DNA of 64,000 nt, taken from Leisingera sp. NJS204 (GTDB taxonomy: Bacteria; Pseudomonadota; Alphaproteobacteria; Rhodobacterales; Rhodobacteraceae). A model generated the notes under the pieces. It was not told where the DNA came from. It made no database searches and saw nothing but the letters and a program-made list of their open reading frames with translations. Numbering within the stretch: the first letter of the stretch is position 1; every line of letters begins with the position of its first letter. A program made the translations under genes and the position numbers. Shown piece by piece: positions 17,199 through 25,577 of this stretch. The stretch is taken from NCBI RefSeq assembly GCF_004123675.1, contig NZ_CP035417.1, positions 1,417,501-1,481,500 on the forward strand. The letters run 5' to 3'.

Positions 17199-17645
17199 TC
17201 AAAGCTGTTCTGTGTCCATCCATACCGTCACCGGGCCGTCATTCAGCAGCCGGACCTTCATGTCGGCACCGAACTGTCCTTTTGCAATTTTCAAACCTAG
17301 CCGGGACAATTGCTCCGCAAAATACTCATACAGCCGTTCGCCTTCGGCAGGCGTAGCAGCAGTGGAAAACCCCGGACGGTTGCCGCGGCGGGTGTCGGCG
17401 GCCAGGGTGAATTGGCTGACCACCAGCGCACTGCCGCCGGTATCCAGCACCGAGCGGTTCATCTTGCCGGCCTCGTCCTTGAAGATCCGCAGCTTGGAGA
17501 TTTTGGCTGCCAGCTGATCCGCCTGCGCCTCGCTGTCGCCGTCCATGGCGCAGATCAGGATCAGCAAGCCTGCGCCGATTTCGCCGATGGCCGTGCCCTC
17601 AACGGTGACCGAGGCCTCGCTGACCCGCTGTATCAATGCCCGCAT
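17199..17645 (-). CDS. dtd: D-aminoacyl-tRNA deacylase
   Basis: Hydrolyses D-aminoacyl-tRNA (and glycyl-tRNA-Ala) so that D-amino acids do not enter translation; cytoplasmic. The 148-residue protein has full DTD length with the two hallmark motifs SQFTL (residues 77-81) and the NDGPVT loop containing the Gly-Pro dipeptide (137-138) that gives chiral proofreading. An AAGGAGCAGTC sequence upstream fits a ribosome-binding site. Confidence 0.93.
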
Positions 17646-17842: not shown

Positions 17843-18262
17843 ATGGTGGAAAAAACCGAACATGGCGGCTTTTGGCCGTCGCTGTATGATCCCTTCCGCG
17901 GTTTTGGCGCCCGGCTGGCCGATTGGCTGAATCCGGCCGCTGAAGCGTCCTCGGGCAAAGAGGCCTATGATATCGCGATGGAACTTCCGGGTGTCGCGCT
18001 GGAGGATCTGGAACTGACGGTGGACAATGGCGTGCTGACAATACGCGGCGAAAAGAAGACGCAGACCGAAAAGACCGGTGACACGTGGTACTTCAGCGAA
18101 CGTCAGTATGGAGCCTTCCGCCGCTCGTTCCGGCTGCCGGAGGATGCGGACGGGCAGACGGCCTCGGCCCGGATGGAGGATGGCGTGCTGCACATAGCGG
18201 TGCCGAAGAAGGCACTGGAACAGACCGAAACGGCCCGCAGGATCGAGATCAGCAAAGGCTGA
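17843..18262 (+). CDS. Small heat-shock protein, Hsp20 family
   Basis: A 139-residue ATP-independent holdase. The alpha-crystallin domain spans roughly residues 40-130, with YDIAMELPGVALEDLELTV at its start and MEDGVLHIAVPK with the typical beta-strand near the end. AAGGAGG precedes the ATG. It is divergent from dtd with about 200 bp between them; I could not identify a confident heat-shock promoter there. Confidence 0.88.
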   Translation: MVEKTEHGGFWPSLYDPFRGFGARLADWLNPAAEASSGKEAYDIAMELPGVALEDLELTVDNGVLTIRGEKKTQTEKTGDTWYFSERQYGAFRRSFRLPEDADGQTASARMEDGVLHIAVPKKALEQTETARRIEISKG

Positions 18263-18360: not shown

Positions 18361-19482
18361 CTATTGCTGACTGGCCAGCAGCGCGATCCCGGCGCCGGCC
18401 AGCAGGGCCAGCAGCACGGCAAAGGCTATTTTCCAAGCCGAGTATGGCCGCTCGCCCTGTACGCGCCCGGATTGCCCGTTGACCACAAAGCGGTAAGTTT
18501 TACCACGGTATTTATAGGCCGCCAGCCAGACCGGCAGCAGGATGTGTTTGAACGTCACCTCCGAAACCTGGGTGTCAATACTGCCGATCCGCTGGCGGTC
18601 GCCGCCGATGTCAAAACGCACATCACGCTCAATCACCCGGTCCATCTTCTGGCCTGCCTCGGCAAAGCCGGTTTCCAGATCCACGGTGTAAGCCTCGGCC
18701 CGGAAACCCGCCAGGTATTGCGGCTGGTATGGTTCCAGCTGAGACAGATCCCAGGGTTCCAGCGCCTCGGTATAGCGTTTGGGCAGGCTGTTGGAGGCCA
18801 GTACCAGCACATCGTCAAAGAACCGCTGCACCCGGCCTGACACCGGCGTCCAGCGTACCTTGGACACCTTCCGGGTCCTGGTCTCGCCATCCTGCTGGTA
18901 GGTCTCGGTCACGTAATAAACCGTGCCGCGCTGACCGGAATAGCGGCTGCGGGTCTGGGCGTCATAGGTCCAGTAGGGCACATAGATACCCTGCATCCGC
19001 CGCCCCTTGCGGGCGTATTCCCTCAGGCCGCTGGGCGCAAACCACAGGCCGCCCAGCCAGTTGGTCATTGCCATATGCGCGGCGCGTTCGGGCATTGCAA
19101 AGGGCAGCACGCCCTTGGGTTTGATATGCCTGCTTTCGCCGGTTCCAGTGACCACCGGTGTGGCGCAGAACGGGCATTCCTTGGCATGGGTATCGGGGTC
19201 GAACTCAACCTGTGCTGCGCAATTGGGGCAGGTGGAAACACGGGTCACTTCGATCTCCGCCTCTGGCAGCCGGTCTGCGGCGGCGGCGGCGAAGTCCAGT
19301 TCCTGAAGCGCAGTCCCTTTCCATGGCCCGCTGCGGATGCTTTCGGAATGCCCGCAGTGGCCGCAGGTCAGGGTGCCCGCGGCCGGGTCATAGGAGTAAT
19401 CCGCACCGCATTGTTCACAAGGGAAGCGATGAGTTTCTTCCTCGGCGGCGGGCATGGTTTCAGCGGGCGGCGGCGGGGGCAT
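18361..19482 (-). CDS. Double zinc-ribbon protein with C-terminal membrane anchor (YdjG-like)
   Basis: A protein of about 373 residues with two TFIIB/primosomal-type zinc ribbons near the N-terminus: Cys22/25/40/43 and Cys85/88/103/106. A long soluble region follows (PYWTYDAQTRSRYSGQRG, then KHILLPVWLAAYKYRGKTYRF), and one membrane span sits at the very C-terminus. Such proteins are sometimes misnamed primosomal helicase; there is no helicase motif. A longer frame begins with TTG at 19536, but that codon lies in the arm of a hairpin, so ATG 19482 (or GTG 19488) is preferred. It is the last gene of the xpaC-telA operon, after an SPFH gene, the order resembling Bacillus ydjG/ydjI neighbours. 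Confidence 0.7.
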   Translation of the reverse strand: MPPPPPAETMPAAEEETHRFPCEQCGADYSYDPAAGTLTCGHCGHSESIRSGPWKGTALQELDFAAAAADRLPEAEIEVTRVSTCPNCAAQVEFDPDTHAKECPFCATPVVTGTGESRHIKPKGVLPFAMPERAAHMAMTNWLGGLWFAPSGLREYARKGRRMQGIYVPYWTYDAQTRSRYSGQRGTVYYVTETYQQDGETRTRKVSKVRWTPVSGRVQRFFDDVLVLASNSLPKRYTEALEPWDLSQLEPYQPQYLAGFRAEAYTVDLETGFAEAGQKMDRVIERDVRFDIGGDRQRIGSIDTQVSEVTFKHILLPVWLAAYKYRGKTYRFVVNGQSGRVQGERPYSAWKIAFAVLLALLAGAGIALLASQQ

Positions 19483-19527
19483 CGTCACTTGCGGCAACCT
19501 GTCAGGTAAGGGGTCAGGGGATGGGGC

Positions 19528-19557
19528 GGGCAGCAAACCGCTTGGGGGTTGCTGCCC
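19528..19557 (-). other. Intercistronic stem-loop between SPFH and zinc-ribbon genes
   Basis: A perfect 9-bp inverted repeat GGGCAGCAA / TTGCTGCCC with a 12-nt loop. There is no U-tract, so it is not a standard terminator. It may stabilise the upstream message or reduce expression of the last gene. Confidence 0.5.
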
Positions 19558-19567
19558 CGGCGCGACG

Positions 19568-20752
19568 TTATCCGGCAGGCGGCGGGGGAGGCGGCGGCAG
19601 GATGGTGAACAGCTGCGCCAGCTCCATCACATCGCCGGCCCGCTTCCAGCCATCCTGGCCCGGGGTCCAGACATGGCTTTCCCGCGTCAGCGTGCCGTCC
19701 TGCGCCATCCGTCCCATTCTTGCCTTTGAGTAGGGGCCGGAGGTCTGTCCGTCCGCCGCAATGTGCCAGACATGCTCGACCGGCGGCGGTGGCGGAGCGG
19801 CAGGCGCGGCCTGCGGGGCTGCGGCAGGCGCTGCCGGTGCGGCAGCAGCGGGGGCGGGGCGGGCGCCCCAGGGGCCTGCGGGCTGACCCGCTGCCCCGTT
19901 GCCGAACTGGTTGCCCATCTGCTGGGCCATCGCGAACCCCATGCCCATTCCCATGCCGCCGCCCATGCCGCTGTTCGGGGTTTGCGCTGCAGCGGTCATT
20001 GCCTCAGCTGCGGAAAATTGCGTGTACCGGCCCAGATCACCCAAAACGCCCATCTGGGTGCGCTTGTCCATCGCTTCTTCCACCGCCGGCGGCAGCGAGA
20101 TGTTTTCAATGTACAGTTCAGGGATCATCAGGCCGTATTCGGCGATTGTGCCGGAGATCTCTGCCGCCACCAGCTTGCCCAGGTCCGCGGTATTGGCAGC
20201 CATATCCAGCACCGGAATGCCGGAGCCAGCGATGACGCGGGAGAACTCCTGAACGATGATGTTGCGGATCTGATAGGAAATCTCGTCCATGGTGAATTCA
20301 CCATCGGTGCCGACGATCTCGGTCAGGAACCGCGCCGGGTCAGCGACCCGCACGGTATAGCTGCCAAAGGCCCGCAGCCGCACCGGGCCGAATTCCGGGT
20401 CGCGGCAGATGATCGGATTCTTGGTCCCCCATTTCAGGTCGCTGAACCGGGTGGTGTCGACAAAATAGACTTCCGATTTAAACGGCGACTGGAACGCGTG
20501 GTCCCAGTGCTGCAGCGTTGTCATCACCGGCATGTTGTTGGTCTCAAGCATGTAAAGACCGGGTGTGAACACATCCGCCAGCTGACCCTCATGCACAAAC
20601 ACCGCCGCCTGGCCCTCGCGCACCGTCAGCTTGGCGCCGTATTTTATCTCATGGCCCTCGCGCTCAAACCGCCAGACCATGGTGTCATGGGTGTCATCCA
20701 CCCAATGGATGACGTCAATGAATTCGCCTTTGAGAAAATCGAAAATACCCAT
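19568..20752 (-). CDS. SPFH-domain protein with C-terminal GYF_2 domain (YdjI-like)
   Basis: A 394-residue protein. The N-terminal two thirds is an SPFH/band-7-type scaffold of the class often labelled virion core protein (MGIFDFLKGEFIDVIHW at the start, FGSYTVRVADPARFL in the middle). A Met/Gly-rich and then Ala/Pro-rich linker (about 255-330) leads to a GYF_2 domain (WHIAADGQTSGPYSKARM, about 335-390) that in other proteins binds proline-rich peptides. There is no signal peptide or clear membrane span. SPFH proteins assemble on membranes as microdomain scaffolds; the zinc-ribbon membrane protein next door is the likely partner. Confidence 0.75.
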   Translation of the reverse strand: MGIFDFLKGEFIDVIHWVDDTHDTMVWRFEREGHEIKYGAKLTVREGQAAVFVHEGQLADVFTPGLYMLETNNMPVMTTLQHWDHAFQSPFKSEVYFVDTTRFSDLKWGTKNPIICRDPEFGPVRLRAFGSYTVRVADPARFLTEIVGTDGEFTMDEISYQIRNIIVQEFSRVIAGSGIPVLDMAANTADLGKLVAAEISGTIAEYGLMIPELYIENISLPPAVEEAMDKRTQMGVLGDLGRYTQFSAAEAMTAAAQTPNSGMGGGMGMGMGFAMAQQMGNQFGNGAAGQPAGPWGARPAPAAAAPAAPAAAPQAAPAAPPPPPVEHVWHIAADGQTSGPYSKARMGRMAQDGTLTRESHVWTPGQDGWKRAGDVMELAQLFTILPPPPPPPAG

Positions 20753-20778
20753 CTGTCAGGTCCTCTTTCTTTGCTGGC

Positions 20779-21720
20779 CTACAGTTCCTGGCCCATCGCC
20801 TCGCGGGCGAGAATGCGGATCACCGGGCGGGCCTCGTCGGCGCCCATCCCTGTTTTCAGTCTTGGATCATACAGCATCTGCAGCAGTTTTTCGTCAAAGC
20901 TGGTCAGCAGCGCAAATTCATCGTCGTCGTTAAAGATCGAGGGCCGCGCCCGCGGGCTGTCATTCCTGAGACCGAGCCCTTGCGCGACTTCCTCATGCAC
21001 GCAGCTTTTGCGCACCAGATCGGGATGTTCAGCGCGGATCAGCGCCACGCCGCGGGTATAGGACAGGGGGTCGCTTTGCGGCCCGCCGGCAACCACAAGG
21101 CAGTAAAAACTGCGGGGCGGGGCAGCCAGCAGCGACAGGTCTTTGGCGCTGATCGAAGGCAGCAGCTCGCGCACCCGCTCAGCGACAAATGCGCTGTCAT
21201 CAAGGCTGGCAAAGATCACGTAAAAGTTCGCCCGGGACGCCACCGTGCTGACCGGATGGCTGGTAATCCGGGCCAGCCGTGCGGCATAGGCGGTGACTGT
21301 TTCCTTGTCCGCCGCCCGCTGGACCGCCGGCACCGAGGGGCCGAATTCGGCTGCGATCCGCACCGGCCCGGCCCAGCGGCCCAAGCCGCCGGAAATGCCC
21401 GATCCGCCGTATTCGTCATAAAACGCCAGCGCCTCGAAACTTTCGGCCAGGTCCTCGGCATCATAGGGCGTGTCCGGGCCGCCGCCATCGGTGCGCAGCA
21501 GCCCGCGGGTCAGCAGGTCGCGTTGCAGGGCATTGTAGTAATAGGCCAGCTGGGCGCTGTCGGCAGAGGGTTTGTAGACCGCAGGTTCAGGCACTGCGGG
21601 TCGGGCCTGCGGCACCAGTGATTCCGGCTGGGCAAAGGGCAGGCAGGCAGACAGGGCAGCCAGCCCGGCCAGGGCGGCTCCGCTCTTCCAGACGGCTTTT
21701 GTTGCCTGCACGCCTGCCAC
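20779..21720 (-). CDS. DUF2927 lipoprotein
   Basis: A 313-residue exported lipoprotein: the N-terminal signal ends in a lipobox LSAC with Cys26 as the lipidation site. The mature domain contains CVHEEVAQGLGLRND (His242-Glu243-Glu244, then Gln247), which resembles a metalloprotease HExxH helix with Gln in place of the second His. This fits the DUF2927 family of Alphaproteobacteria, whose function is unknown. It is the only clearly secreted member of the operon, which suggests that the system connects cytoplasm and periplasm. Gaps to its neighbours are 5 and 26 bp. Confidence 0.72.
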   Translation of the reverse strand: MAGVQATKAVWKSGAALAGLAALSACLPFAQPESLVPQARPAVPEPAVYKPSADSAQLAYYYNALQRDLLTRGLLRTDGGGPDTPYDAEDLAESFEALAFYDEYGGSGISGGLGRWAGPVRIAAEFGPSVPAVQRAADKETVTAYAARLARITSHPVSTVASRANFYVIFASLDDSAFVAERVRELLPSISAKDLSLLAAPPRSFYCLVVAGGPQSDPLSYTRGVALIRAEHPDLVRKSCVHEEVAQGLGLRNDSPRARPSIFNDDDEFALLTSFDEKLLQMLYDPRLKTGMGADEARPVIRILAREAMGQEL

Positions 21721-21725
21721 TCCGC

Positions 21726-22916
21726 TCAGGTCGGCACAGCGGTGCCGGCGTTGTCGCCGACCCCGTCGCGGCGCGACTTGGCAGAGGCCAGCGTATCGCG
21801 CAGCTCAGCTTCCATCTTCTGCAAGTCCGCCTCGGCAGCGGCGCGTTTGGCTTTGCCTTCGTCAGCGATCCGCAGGCTGTCCTGAATGGTGCCGATCAGG
21901 TCGGCATTGGCCTGCTTTACTGCTTCGATGTCAAAGACGCCGCGCTCCATCTCCTGCCGGATCATCTCGTTCGACTGGCGCAGATTGGCTGCGTTGGATT
22001 TCAGCAGTTCATTGGTCAGGTCATTGGCGTCACGCACAGCGGCGGCGGCCTGGGCCGAACGCTGAATGGTCAGCGCCTGGGCCAGCTGGGTCTCCCACAG
22101 CGGCACGGTGTTCACCAGGGTTGAGTTGATTTTGGTGACCAGCGACTTGTCGTTCTCCTGCACCAGCCGGATCGAGGGCAGCGACTGCATGGTGACCTGG
22201 CGGGTCAGTTTCAGGTCATGCACCCGGCGTTCCAGGTCGTCGCGCGCGGCGCGCAGGTCGCGCAGCTCCTGCGCCTTCATCACCTGGTCATCTTCGGGTG
22301 CTGACTGCACTTCGGCTTCCTTTGCGGGGATGGCGGTCCCGTCCAGCTCAGCCAGCTTGGCCTCGCCCGCAGCGATGTACAGCGCCAGCTCGTCATAGAA
22401 GCTCAGCGTTTTCTCGTAGAGCATATCGAGAGACTTAATGTCTTTCAGCAGGGTGTGCTCGTGTCCCAGCAGATCGTCGGTGACCTTGTCGATCTGCCCC
22501 TGCACGGTTTCATACCGCGCGGTGAATTTGGCAAAAGGGGCTGCCTTGCCCAGCAGGCGCTCCCAGAACGACGGCTTGCGGCGGATGTCCAGTTCGGACA
22601 CTGAAAAGCCGCGGATGGTGGTCACGATATTGCGTAAGGAATCGCCCGCAGGCCCCACGTCCTTGTTACGCACATCGGCTAGCATCGCCTGGCTGATCGT
22701 CTGCAGTTCGCTTTGCGCGGCCGAGCCGAAATGAATGATCGAATTGGTGTCGCCCATGTCGATCTGATCCATCCGCACCCGGATCGCTTCGCTGGTGGGG
22801 GCGTCGGCCTGCGCCAGCGGCTGGATGTCTGCGGCAGGTTCGGGCAGTTCGATCGCCGTGACCTCATTGACCAGGGCCTCGGCTTGGGCGGCTTTCTGTT
22901 GCACGGCTTCGGACAT
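21726..22916 (-). CDS. telA: TelA/YaaN family protein (toxic anion resistance family)
   Basis: A 396-residue, mostly alpha-helical cytoplasmic protein covering the full TelA domain (for example NIVTTIRGFSVSELD, the FAKFTARYETVQGQIDKV segment and the WETQLAQALTIQRSAQAAA segment), with a coiled-coil C-terminus. TelA homologues were first linked to tellurite resistance and recur with XpaC and other envelope-stress genes; the molecular role is unresolved. It lies 18 bp after xpaC and 5 bp before the DUF2927 gene, clearly one operon. Confidence 0.8.
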   Translation of the reverse strand: MSEAVQQKAAQAEALVNEVTAIELPEPAADIQPLAQADAPTSEAIRVRMDQIDMGDTNSIIHFGSAAQSELQTISQAMLADVRNKDVGPAGDSLRNIVTTIRGFSVSELDIRRKPSFWERLLGKAAPFAKFTARYETVQGQIDKVTDDLLGHEHTLLKDIKSLDMLYEKTLSFYDELALYIAAGEAKLAELDGTAIPAKEAEVQSAPEDDQVMKAQELRDLRAARDDLERRVHDLKLTRQVTMQSLPSIRLVQENDKSLVTKINSTLVNTVPLWETQLAQALTIQRSAQAAAAVRDANDLTNELLKSNAANLRQSNEMIRQEMERGVFDIEAVKQANADLIGTIQDSLRIADEGKAKRAAAEADLQKMEAELRDTLASAKSRRDGVGDNAGTAVPT

Positions 22917-22934
22917 GAACGGCTTCCTCGCTAA

Positions 22935-23828
22935 TCAGTTTTGGTCCAGATGGACCCCTTCACGCTGCAAACGGTCGCGCAGCACATCAATTTCAATGGT
23001 CAGATCCGCACGGTCCTCGACCAGCATCTTGCGGGTGCGCGCGGCAAAATTCTGTTCCAGATCATCCAGCAGCGCCAGATAATCGGTGCGGGCCTGGGCG
23101 TCCTGGCTGCGGGCGTAGATATCGGCGAATTTCACCGTCGCGTCGCGGGCGCCCTGCAAATACACGGTCAGATACTTGCGCGCCGCGGTCAGGTCGCGCG
23201 GGTCTTCCTCGACCGTGCGGAACAGGTCGCGGGCTACCGCCTGAAACTGCTCTACCCGGGCTTCGACCTGGCGGTCACGGGCGCGCAGAGCGGCGTCGGT
23301 CATCGCAGCAAGGCTCATTTCCGCCTCGTCCACCGCACGGGCGACACGGGATTGCTGGAATTCATCGATGCCCTCGGCGCCTTTGTCCTGCAGCGGGTCG
23401 ATCCCGAATGCGGTCAGGTAGAGGCCAAGCGTTGCGGCGCCATAGATAACTGCGGTCAGAACACCGGGCTCGGCCTTCCACGCCGCCAGCGCCGCGCCTG
23501 TGCCTGCCAGCAATGCGGCCAGGATCTTGCGGGGCAGGGCGGGTTTGCGGGCCACCTTACGGGCGGCAAAGGCGGCCTCGGCCTTCAGTCCTTCGCGCAG
23601 CAGGAAGGCGCCGCCGGTCCACAGGCCTGCGCCTGCCAGCCCCAGCGCCAGCCCTATTGCTCCGTCGTTCAAGGACAAAAGCGTCAGGATCGCGGGCGGC
23701 ACAAACATCAGGTTGGCGCGCATGCCAACAGGATCTACTTGCGCATTGCGAAAGGATTGCGCGGGCTTTGCGGGCTGCTGCGCGGGTTTTCCATCGGGGC
23801 TGTATTTGCCGCCGTAACGCTGTGCCAT
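22935..23828 (-). CDS. xpaC: XpaC family membrane protein
   Basis: A 297-residue protein with a basic, Gln/Pro-rich N-terminus (1-35), two hydrophobic blocks (about 38-76 and 101-142, two hairpins of spans) and a long helical cytoplasmic C-terminus (150-297) typical of the XpaC domain (QFQAVARDLFRTVEEDPRDL, then a YLTVYLQGARDATVKFA segment). XpaC was named for hydrolysis of a chromogenic phosphate substrate, but there is no evidence of an enzyme active site here. It pairs with TelA in many bacteria. It is the first large gene of the operon. Confidence 0.78.
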   Translation of the reverse strand: MAQRYGGKYSPDGKPAQQPAKPAQSFRNAQVDPVGMRANLMFVPPAILTLLSLNDGAIGLALGLAGAGLWTGGAFLLREGLKAEAAFAARKVARKPALPRKILAALLAGTGAALAAWKAEPGVLTAVIYGAATLGLYLTAFGIDPLQDKGAEGIDEFQQSRVARAVDEAEMSLAAMTDAALRARDRQVEARVEQFQAVARDLFRTVEEDPRDLTAARKYLTVYLQGARDATVKFADIYARSQDAQARTDYLALLDDLEQNFAARTRKMLVEDRADLTIEIDVLRDRLQREGVHLDQN

Positions 23829-23832
23829 GGGA

Positions 23833-23907
23833 TCAGCCCCCTACAATCCAGCCGGTGCTGAGGCCAAGCATCAGGATCAACAGGGCAGCATAGGCAAGTT
23901 TCTGCAC
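23833..23907 (-). CDS. Possible 24-residue single-span membrane peptide
   Basis: A GTG start at 23907 with GGGGGGACC upstream opens a 24-codon frame reading MQKLAYAALLILMLGLSTG and ending WIVGG. It has a short positive N-terminus and then one continuous hydrophobic span. It stops 4 bp before the xpaC start, so it would be the first gene of the operon. No database family can be claimed; the ribosome-binding site, hydrophobic pattern and tight spacing are the evidence. Confidence 0.4.
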   Translation of the reverse strand: MQKLAYAALLILMLGLSTGWIVGG

Positions 23908-24001: not shown

Positions 24002-25066
24002 TCAGCGGCGGGGATTCTTGCCGATCGGACGCTTTCCGCCCCCGCGCTGAGCGTCCCCGCCGCCGCGGGGGGCTGACGGCTTGCCGGAGGGTTTGCCCGG
24101 TTTCCCTTGCGCTTTCTGCCCGGGTTTTCCACCCGGTTTGCCCATTGGTTTTCCTGCCGGTTTGCCGGCTGGTCTGCCCATCGGTTTGCCGCCAGGCTTG
24201 CCTGCAGGTTTGCCGCTGCGCGAACGAGTCGGGCGGGTTTCGGGCTGTTCTTCTTCCGGAGCAAGCCCCAATTGGTCGCGTACCACGCGCGAGCGCAGCT
24301 CCTCGACTGCACCGGGTTTCAGCTCGCCCAGCTGGAACGGGCCGTATGAAATCCGCAGCAGCCGGTTCACGTTGAAGCCGATATCCTCCATCGCGCGGCG
24401 GATCTCGCGGTTCTTGCCTTCCCGCAGGCCCACGGTCAGCCAGGCATTGGCGCCCTGCTGGCGGTCCAAGGCAACGGTCATCGGCTGAAATCGCTCGCCC
24501 TCGATCACCAGGCCCTGGCGCAGCGGGGCAAAATCTTCGTCCTTGGGGCGGCCGTTGATCCGCACCCGGTAACGGCGCAGCCAGCCGGTCGAGGGCAGTT
24601 CCAGCTTGCGCTTGATGCCGCCGTCGTTGGTCAGCAGCAGCAAGCCTTCGGAGTTGATATCAAGCCGCCCGACCGTCATCACCCGCGGCATGTCTTCGGG
24701 CAGCTCGTCAAAGATCGTCGCGCGGCCCTTTTCGTCGCTGTTCGAGGTGACCAGTCCGATCGGCTTATAGTACAGCCACATCCGCGGCGCTTCGGCCTCG
24801 GGCAGGGGCTTGCCATCGACGCTGATCCGGTCCGCCGCAGTCACGTTCAGCGCCGGGCTGTCGATCTTCTCGCCGTTCACTGACACACGGCCCTCGGCGA
24901 TCATCCGTTCAGCCTCCCGGCGCGAGGCGACGCCTGCGCGCGACAAAACCTTGGCGATGCGGTCGCCCTCGGGGGCGGCGCCGCCGGCAGGGGCGGCGGC
25001 TGCAGCTTTGCGGGGCTGGGATTTCGGGCCGGGTTTGCCCTTGGGGGATGCGGGTGCTTTGCTCAT
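24002..25066 (-). CDS. Pseudouridine synthase, RsuA/RluB family, with Lys-Pro-Gly tail
   Basis: Isomerises a uridine in rRNA. The 354-residue protein has an S4 RNA-binding domain (RIAKVLSRAGVASRREAERM, about 35-80) and the catalytic domain with GRLDINSEGLLLLTNDG, in which the Asp is the nucleophile. The last 75 residues form a basic low-complexity tail of repeated Gly-Lys-Pro units ending in GKRPIGKNPRR, which could bind RNA. The ATG at 25066 is used because the frame upstream would overlap the promoter region of divergent tadA. RluB (23S rRNA) is the likeliest identity. Confidence 0.85.
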   Translation of the reverse strand: MSKAPASPKGKPGPKSQPRKAAAAAPAGGAAPEGDRIAKVLSRAGVASRREAERMIAEGRVSVNGEKIDSPALNVTAADRISVDGKPLPEAEAPRMWLYYKPIGLVTSNSDEKGRATIFDELPEDMPRVMTVGRLDINSEGLLLLTNDGGIKRKLELPSTGWLRRYRVRINGRPKDEDFAPLRQGLVIEGERFQPMTVALDRQQGANAWLTVGLREGKNREIRRAMEDIGFNVNRLLRISYGPFQLGELKPGAVEELRSRVVRDQLGLAPEEEQPETRPTRSRSGKPAGKPGGKPMGRPAGKPAGKPMGKPGGKPGQKAQGKPGKPSGKPSAPRGGGDAQRGGGKRPIGKNPRR

Positions 25067-25127
25067 GTGCGTGCCATAGAGCATTCCGCCGCCTTGCGAA
25101 AGCGCGCAATCGCGGGCAGGAAGGGGC

Positions 25128-25577
25128 ATGGCATTCAAATCGCATATGGACAAGGCGCTGGAGCAGGCGCGTGCCGCGGCAGACCGCGGCGAGGTGCCGG
25201 TCGGCGCGGTGCTGATCGCACCGGACGGGCAGGTCGCGGCGCTGGCGGGCAACCGCACCCGCGAGCTGAGCGACCCAACCGCTCATGCCGAGATCCTGAC
25301 GATCCGGGAGGCCTGTGCCGCGCTTGGGGGCGAACGGCTGACCGGCTTTGATCTCTATGTGACGCTGGAACCCTGCGCGATGTGTGCCGCCGCCATTGCC
25401 GCTGCCCGCATCCGCCGGGTTTATTACGGGGCTTCCGATCCCAAATCCGGCGGTGTTGCGCATGGCGCATGCGTGTTCTCCCATCCCCAGGCGCACCACG
25501 CGCCCGAAGTTTATGACGGCATAGCCGAAGGCGAGGCCAGCGCATTGCTCAAGGACTTCTTCGCGGGCAAACGCTAA
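25128..25577 (+). CDS. tadA: tRNA(adenine34) deaminase
   Basis: Converts A34 to inosine in tRNA-Arg(ACG). The 149-residue protein has the cytidine/deoxycytidylate deaminase zinc site: His53-Ala-Glu55 with the proton-shuttling Glu, and Pro-Cys83-x-x-Cys86. Length and the EVPVGAVL start fit TadA. It is divergent from the pseudouridine synthase, another RNA modification enzyme. Confidence 0.9.
   Translation: MAFKSHMDKALEQARAAADRGEVPVGAVLIAPDGQVAALAGNRTRELSDPTAHAEILTIREACAALGGERLTGFDLYVTLEPCAMCAAAIAAARIRRVYYGASDPKSGGVAHGACVFSHPQAHHAPEVYDGIAEGEASALLKDFFAGKR

Follow-up and report, generated by a model that had tools for sequence, protein, structure and literature searches.

TelA and XpaC are, to our knowledge, widespread proteins that were named for a side phenotype and that remain mechanistically unexplained. 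Here we describe a set of five genes, encoding XpaC, TelA, a DUF2927 lipoprotein, an SPFH-GYF protein and a double zinc-ribbon protein, in a stretch of 64,000 nucleotides from Leisingera sp. NJS204 of the order Rhodobacterales (NZ_CP035417.1, positions 1,417,501 to 1,481,500; hereafter the window). Three described gene systems stand closest to it. The first is the pspA-ydjGHI operon of Bacillus, for which passages of PMC8581546 report that membrane localisation of PspA requires YdjI, that both proteins require YdjG and YdjH, and that loss of ydjI lowers membrane fluidity; a role of YdjI in PspA localisation in Bacillus also appears in part of PMC9239133. The second is the xpaC-yaaN/telA pair of Firmicutes (lmo1966-1967, llmg_1115-1116): a transcriptome table in a Lactococcus paper on membrane-protein overproduction and CesSR has xpaC-like and telA genes raised (PMC3139573), and a passage of PMC12791056 cites a Listeria telA mutant as more sensitive to nisin and tellurite. 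The third comprises polyamine-linked band-7 operons, described together with the ydj operon in PMC11237479, from whose main text TelA is absent.

We located the Bacillus operon in B. spizizenii TU-B-10 by means of a primer printed in PMC8581546. The window's zinc-ribbon transmembrane (TM) protein aligns with YdjG over almost its whole length (27% over 354 amino acids, pairwise E 1e-41), and the SPFH protein aligns with YdjI over the SPFH domain (27% over 263 amino acids, pairwise E 3e-35, profile score 178 bits); with the former alignment, what an earlier, preliminary description of this DNA called a zinc-ribbon sensor-like protein becomes, more specifically, a YdjG homologue. The likeness to the Firmicutes pair lies in XpaC and TelA adjoining in the same order, with PF10112 coming immediately ahead of PF05816 on a shared strand, and the window TelA matches the Bacillus TelA that adjoins xpaC at 36% over 377 amino acids. 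The Bacillus operon has PspA and YdjH, neither of which is in the window operon, whereas the window operon has XpaC, TelA, DUF2927 and a microprotein besides, and its SPFH protein bears an extra GYF domain. In B. spizizenii the xpaC-telA pair (at about 36 kb) is some 750 kb from pspA-ydjGHI (at about 790 kb), and a second TelA lies at 430 kb, whereas the window pair adjoins the YdjI-like and YdjG-like genes.

None of the five window proteins matches PF04012 (PspA/IM30), and PspA occurs in 46 of the order's 149 genomes (E ≤ 1e-10), whereas TelA occurs in 147. From the homologous adaptor and receptor, the lack of PspA in the operon and this difference in distribution, we derive a working model in which the effector is a different one. 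By analogy with pspA-ydjGHI of B. subtilis, we see an even chance that the set is a core, PSP-like (phage shock protein-like) membrane-surveillance operon with TelA in the place of PspA. The presence of TelA and XpaC beside YdjI-like and YdjG-like partners makes this model concrete, in that TelA would be the client of the SPFH adaptor. On this reading the set combines PSP-like wiring, in which the effector is likely to be a different one, with the pseudo-metzincin lipoprotein and the microprotein described below. In the open-licence literature, partly among the matches listed, we found no description of the whole set, to which the preliminary description had assigned no established function.

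The 149 genomes span 72 genera and fall into one family in the classification used. TelA has a single match in 144 of them (G085 holds weak fragments only), DUF2927 is present in 148, mostly with at least two matches, and Band_7_1 in 146, 145 of these above the cut-off. For gene order, we took one TelA locus from each genus with a TelA match (71 genera) and added the window, which shares its genus with locus L032. At these 72 loci genes were called with profiles grown from the window proteins, and each gap was taken from a stop codon to the 5' limit of the open frame that follows, which makes it a lower bound. At 61 of the 72 loci the five genes are all present, share a strand and keep their order, which is more than chance. 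At the remainder, DUF2927 is missing from its place (L040, L048), XpaC is not recognisable (L038), TelA is a fragment (L078), the zinc-ribbon gene is missing (L046, L072 and L084, near contig ends; L039 and L049, not near them), or both the SPFH and zinc-ribbon genes are missing (L076 and L091, the L091 pair being on a separate contig, L103). XpaC and TelA were both detected at 70 loci, always on one strand, and are no more than 100 bp apart in 69 of these. The same distance holds between TelA and DUF2927 at 68 of 69 loci, between DUF2927 and SPFH at 56 of 67, and between SPFH and the zinc ribbon at 35 of 64; spacing is thus closest among the first three genes and slack ahead of the zinc-ribbon gene. 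All four gaps are within 250 bp at 29 of the 61 five-gene loci. At L087, TelA and DUF2927 are eleven kilobases apart.

The preliminary description put the five genes in this order on one strand, and the Pfam matches at 18361-23828 bear it out. Its figures of 18, 5 and 26 bp for the first three intergenic gaps hold exactly; the fourth, which it gave as about 85 bp, measures 85 bp from the ATG at 19482, the more likely start, and 31 bp from the TTG at 19536. We use the label operon because of spacing and conservation, and co-transcription of the set is presumed. A promoter scan of the locus gave one prediction against 1.3 in shuffled sequence and a terminator scan gave eight against 5.4 (standard deviation 2.3), little excess; none was accepted in either scan.

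Features of the locus, with positions counted from the first nucleotide of the window
Feature	Positions	Strand or place	Basis
Pseudouridine-synthase-like gene	24002-25258	precedes the set	name by our reading
Micro-ORF (ORF, open reading frame), 24 amino acids, GTG start, single hydrophobic segment, VQKLAYAALLILMLGLSTGWIVGG	23833-23907	minus	translation
XpaC	22935-23828	minus	PF10112, 9.7e-29
TelA	21726-22916	minus	PF05816, 8.3e-109
DUF2927 lipoprotein	20779-21720	minus	PF11150, 7.5e-62; lipobox LSAC read by eye
SPFH-GYF protein, C-terminal polyproline tail	19568-20752	minus	PF13421 (Band_7_1), 3e-99; PF14237 (GYF_2), 2.3e-19
Double zinc-ribbon protein, one C-terminal TM segment	18361-19536	minus	YdjG homologue; TM segment by hydropathy
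Hsp20 gene	17843-18262	opposite strand, downstream of the five-gene set	
dtd	17199-17645	beyond the Hsp20 gene	name by our reading

Whether the order is kept outside close relatives, a matter raised by the preliminary description, has a divided answer: the five-gene order was seen only within the window's family, which spans the 72 sampled genera, and a four-gene core extends beyond it. A class-wide draw of 192 genomes has TelA in 19, of which 16 are among the 189 outside the family, and a strong Band_7_1 match in six of the latter. The four-gene core, XpaC-TelA-SPFH-zinc ribbon with no DUF2927, is carried by G259, G193, G247 and G334, four genomes that belong to three other families. Outside the family, a phylum draw of 299 genomes has SPFH and TelA mostly in separate places. 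Nineteen genomes outside the family have a strong SPFH match in this draw; at the SPFH loci of the 15 that we fetched, the neighbour is a strong zinc-ribbon-family match at six, a weak one (15-32 bits) at eight and a contig edge at one (L124). The polyamine-linked band-7/zinc-ribbon operons treated in passages of PMC11237479 share with the window an SPFH gene adjoining a zinc-ribbon one, an arrangement seen in the loci of the weak type (L130-L137); these loci have no XpaC-TelA, and the one partner checked (L130) is a DUF4178 protein.

We built a TelA tree of 37 rows, with the order represented by every fifth locus plus the window (16 rows) beside 21 others. TelA genes that adjoin an SPFH gene fall into a single clade (support 97/100), separate from those without such a neighbour. 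This clade holds the order, the four outside genomes and a distant lineage, L138, which is a long branch; elsewhere the tree has poor resolution. A single origin of the four-gene set would agree with the SPFH tree, where its support, 85/92, falls short of the star threshold. From the outside-family loci and the trees, we draw a picture of two dyads, XpaC-TelA and SPFH-zinc ribbon, that were joined, perhaps once, with DUF2927 added in the order. The genome of that distant lineage measures 2.0 Mb, and at L138:6510-9296 the gene after the XpaC-TelA pair encodes a GYF protein that matches SPFH weakly.

The alternative that survives best is that XpaC-TelA(-DUF2927) and SPFH-zinc ribbon are two independent dyads that merely share an inherited neighbourhood. 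The SPFH-zinc ribbon pair is indeed found without TelA in other Proteobacteria, insertions at the SPFH/zinc-ribbon seam are frequent, and the halves of the set are separated in G124, G048 and possibly G130, where SPFH is at a contig start. We nevertheless consider this alternative unlikely, given that the order is retained at 61 of 72 loci from 71 genera, that it recurs without DUF2927 in the four genomes of three other families, that TelA genes with SPFH neighbours form a single clade and that a GYF/weak-SPFH gene adjoins TelA in L138.

The separation of the halves also weighs against a surveillance operon with TelA in PspA's place, together with several further observations. The SPFH-zinc ribbon gap exceeds 250 bp at 26 of 64 loci. 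The window XpaC resembles Bacillus XpaC weakly (profile 34 bits, BLASTP 24 bits). The window's own genome has a PspA-like gene, about 204 kb away (C1:1644304). No YdjH (TPM) match occurs among the five window proteins, and YdjH touches YdjI and PspA in Bacillus. TelA has no sequence match in the PDB, and so no solved relative by sequence, and neither PspA nor ESCRT-III is among the 50 TelA fold matches listed. Those matches, which speak neither for nor against a PspA-like fold, are alpha-pore toxins, axonemal coiled coils and BAR-domain coiled coils; the best E is 0.0053, 43 of the 50 have a root mean square deviation above 16 Å and the query TM-score is at most 0.37, for a model with a predicted local distance difference test (pLDDT) score of 78. 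The model has long helices at residues 126-205, 208-323 and 330-383, and hydropathy gives no TM segment. That TelA acts like PspA, or takes its seat, may be proposed by analogy.

In the PSP-like model, the YdjG-like zinc-ribbon protein and XpaC would be inner-membrane proteins whose bulk faces the cell interior; XpaC has two hydrophobic regions by hydropathy (residues 46-77 and 122-143), and its C-terminus is presumably cytoplasmic and helical. The SPFH-GYF protein would dock on both and assemble into a scaffold, which would recruit or concentrate the elongated, helical TelA at the stressed membrane. The DUF2927 lipoprotein, a predicted metzincin fold minus the zinc histidines, would report from or link to the periplasm or outer membrane, and the TM microprotein would be a regulatory or assembly subunit of XpaC. 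We infer complex formation, recruitment, induction by stress and all functions of the operon. A more detailed version is possible, if distinctly less probable than the general model: TelA would be a membrane-acting polymer that replaces PspA and is clustered by SPFH-GYF, a TM microprotein of about 22-36 amino acids would gate XpaC, and the Glu/Gln/Asp metzincin would be a periplasmic, perhaps cation-binding, sensor, the whole being near-universal in the order.

The microprotein is encoded directly before xpaC. The preliminary description had let the set end at 23907. This position, 79 bp ahead of the xpaC ATG, coincides exactly with the GTG of a 24-codon ORF that it left unnamed, whose stop is 4 nt before that ATG. 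At 68 of the 70 order loci that have XpaC, a hydrophobic ORF terminates between -4 and +4 relative to the xpaC start, whereas among random ATGs of these loci the figure is 443 of 8520; L087 has no such ORF, and that of L047 lies slightly outside the range. With a short sequence motif added, the figures are 58 of 70 against 27 of 8520, and the first contrast is the fairer since the motif was picked after viewing the sequences. The counterparts across L032-L102 have a single TM segment and 22-36 amino acids. Over 865 sequence pairs, which are not independent, single-base codon differences comprise 5269 synonymous and 2700 nonsynonymous, where the neutral expectation is 2527 and 5442: the micro-ORF is under purifying selection. 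Three of the peptides have no match in Pfam or NCBIfam, and the open-licence literature yielded nothing. By eye, hydrophobic candidates stand at two of the outside four-gene loci (L112 and L115), and those at L111 and L114 are unconvincing. We propose on sequence grounds that the micro-ORF is the operon's first gene; it probably encodes a real, translationally coupled TM microprotein, and as such a candidate subunit at nearly all xpaC loci examined.

Where the GYF domain might bind is suggested by two conserved termini. The preliminary description had suggested predicting its complexes with Pro-rich tails such as the XpaC N-terminus, but that N-terminus is not a Pro-rich tail: it reads MAQRYGGKYSP in the window (23796-23828) and is MAQRFGGKYSP-like in the order, a strict pattern for the peptide matching 59 of 70 XpaC sequences, with 10 of the 11 exceptions near variants by eye. 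Binding of GYF to XpaC is possible all the same, and the strongly conserved peptide, which the Bacillus XpaC examined lacks, may be a docking motif. The C-terminal PPP tail of the SPFH protein is kept in 71 of 72 sequences, and because of this we regard the protein's own tail as the better-kept GYF ligand candidate. The window's PPPPP at the N-terminus of the zinc-ribbon protein is not conserved (PPP in five of 67).

A second alternative is that the set is an operon for tellurite or oxyanion tolerance in the narrow sense. The family name points that way, R. sphaeroides telA is listed among tellurite loci in part of PMC6955997, and 15 of the 72 loci have a TerC-family gene upstream of xpaC in the same orientation (Pfam checked for one, L079). 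We think it improbable, in view of a near-universal set in the order (TelA in 147 of 149 genomes), of homologues tied to cell-envelope agents as well (passages of PMC12791056 and PMC3139573) and of SPFH and YdjG-like parts that belong to membrane stress (sections of PMC8581546).

The DUF2927 protein gains a predicted fold and a defined, invariant and altered active site. Its model has a pLDDT of 91.5 (71 sequences, two of them, L105 and L106, from genomes without the rest of the set). By Foldseek, 45 of the 50 matches listed are matrixins (best E 0.013, none below 0.001, probability up to 0.99); a further four we take to be other metzincins, namely ADAMTS4, an archaemetzincin and snapalysin twice, and the remaining one is unrelated. 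The VIA-align Z-scores run from 10.6 to 11.7 across the 50 matches listed, the score of 11.7 covering 147 residues at 2.7 Å (model residues 94-284). By sequence, the PDB offers only matches of E 0.025 or worse. The model thus predicts a matrixin-like/metzincin fold over about residues 94-287. The likeness to matrixin (M10-type) peptidases is one of predicted fold; the protein differs in being a lipoprotein and in having Glu, Gln and Asp for the zinc histidines.

The motif in the window protein is C240-V-H-E243-E244-V-A-Q247-G-L-G250-L-R-N-D254 (EExxQxxGxxND). E243, E244, Q247, D254, C207 and C240 are present in 71 of 71 sequences and H242 in 70. Three distant members (L162-L164; Pfam E 1.4e-15 to 2.9e-13) keep C-x-x-H-E-x-x-H-x-x-G-x-x-x-H, which lines up in register without gaps when counted from the shared Cys, and therefore the places of the zinc ligands hold E243, Q247 and D254 in the window protein, a register read from sequence. 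The letters HEExxQ pointed out in the preliminary description are present (H242 to Q247), but H242 is one residue off the zincin histidine position; it is E243-E244-Q247 that sit at the H-E-H positions, and the hint of a protease is likewise out of register. An HExxHxxGxxH/D-type site is lacking in the window protein and its 70 orthologues, none of which has a zinc histidine. Among 20 further DUF2927 loci, four from the window's order and the others from other families, 19 were readable: 14 members show the E-E-Q-D pattern, three the canonical histidines and two neither. Because E243, E244, Q247 and D254 are kept so strictly, the sequences speak for reuse of the site, with or without bound metal, and against decay. 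C207 and C240 would suit a disulfide outside the cytoplasm. One genome of the class (G280:C1:46652-66787) holds seven DUF2927 matches in about 20 kb, two of which may be pieces of one gene, probably a tandem expansion.

These data bear on a third alternative, in which DUF2927 would work as a metallopeptidase with ligands of an unusual kind, and the operon as a stress switch that acts by proteolysis in the periplasm. It would build on the predicted matrixin fold, on Glu244 at the catalytic position with E243, Q247 and D254 invariant about it, and on L162-L164, which retain HExxHxxGxxxH. With zero of three zinc histidines in the window protein or its 70 orthologues, and the replacement common to 14 of the 19 other members read, we regard it as quite unlikely, marginally more so than a tellurite operon.

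A phage-defence system is very improbable: PSP relatives were originally met in phage infection, but TelA is core (147 of 149 genomes) rather than patchy or island-like and usually stands next to dtd (49 of 72 loci), PADLOC yields no hit at E ≤ 0.01 for any of the five proteins, and no obvious mobile genes occur among the recurrent neighbours identified, most neighbour clusters not having been family-searched. Of the trans-envelope stress or defence machine suggested in the preliminary description, the defence half lacks support; the stress half fits a conserved set with periplasmic, membrane and cytoplasmic parts that are kin to envelope-stress proteins.

Three kinds of neighbour recur around the set. 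The TerC-family gene is within 171 bp of xpaC at 14 loci (L033, L035, L040, L041, L046, L051, L053, L060, L068, L073, L079, L093, L096 and L101) and 419 bp away at L094. A diverged second XpaC-like gene lies just upstream of xpaC in L049, L058 and L064, that of L049 having no Pfam match at E ≤ 0.01. A cytochrome b561-like gene (Pfam checked for L057) is found between the SPFH and zinc-ribbon genes at 16 loci: L034, L035, L036, L043, L051, L057, L062, L069, L073, L081, L086, L093, L094, L099, L101 and L107.

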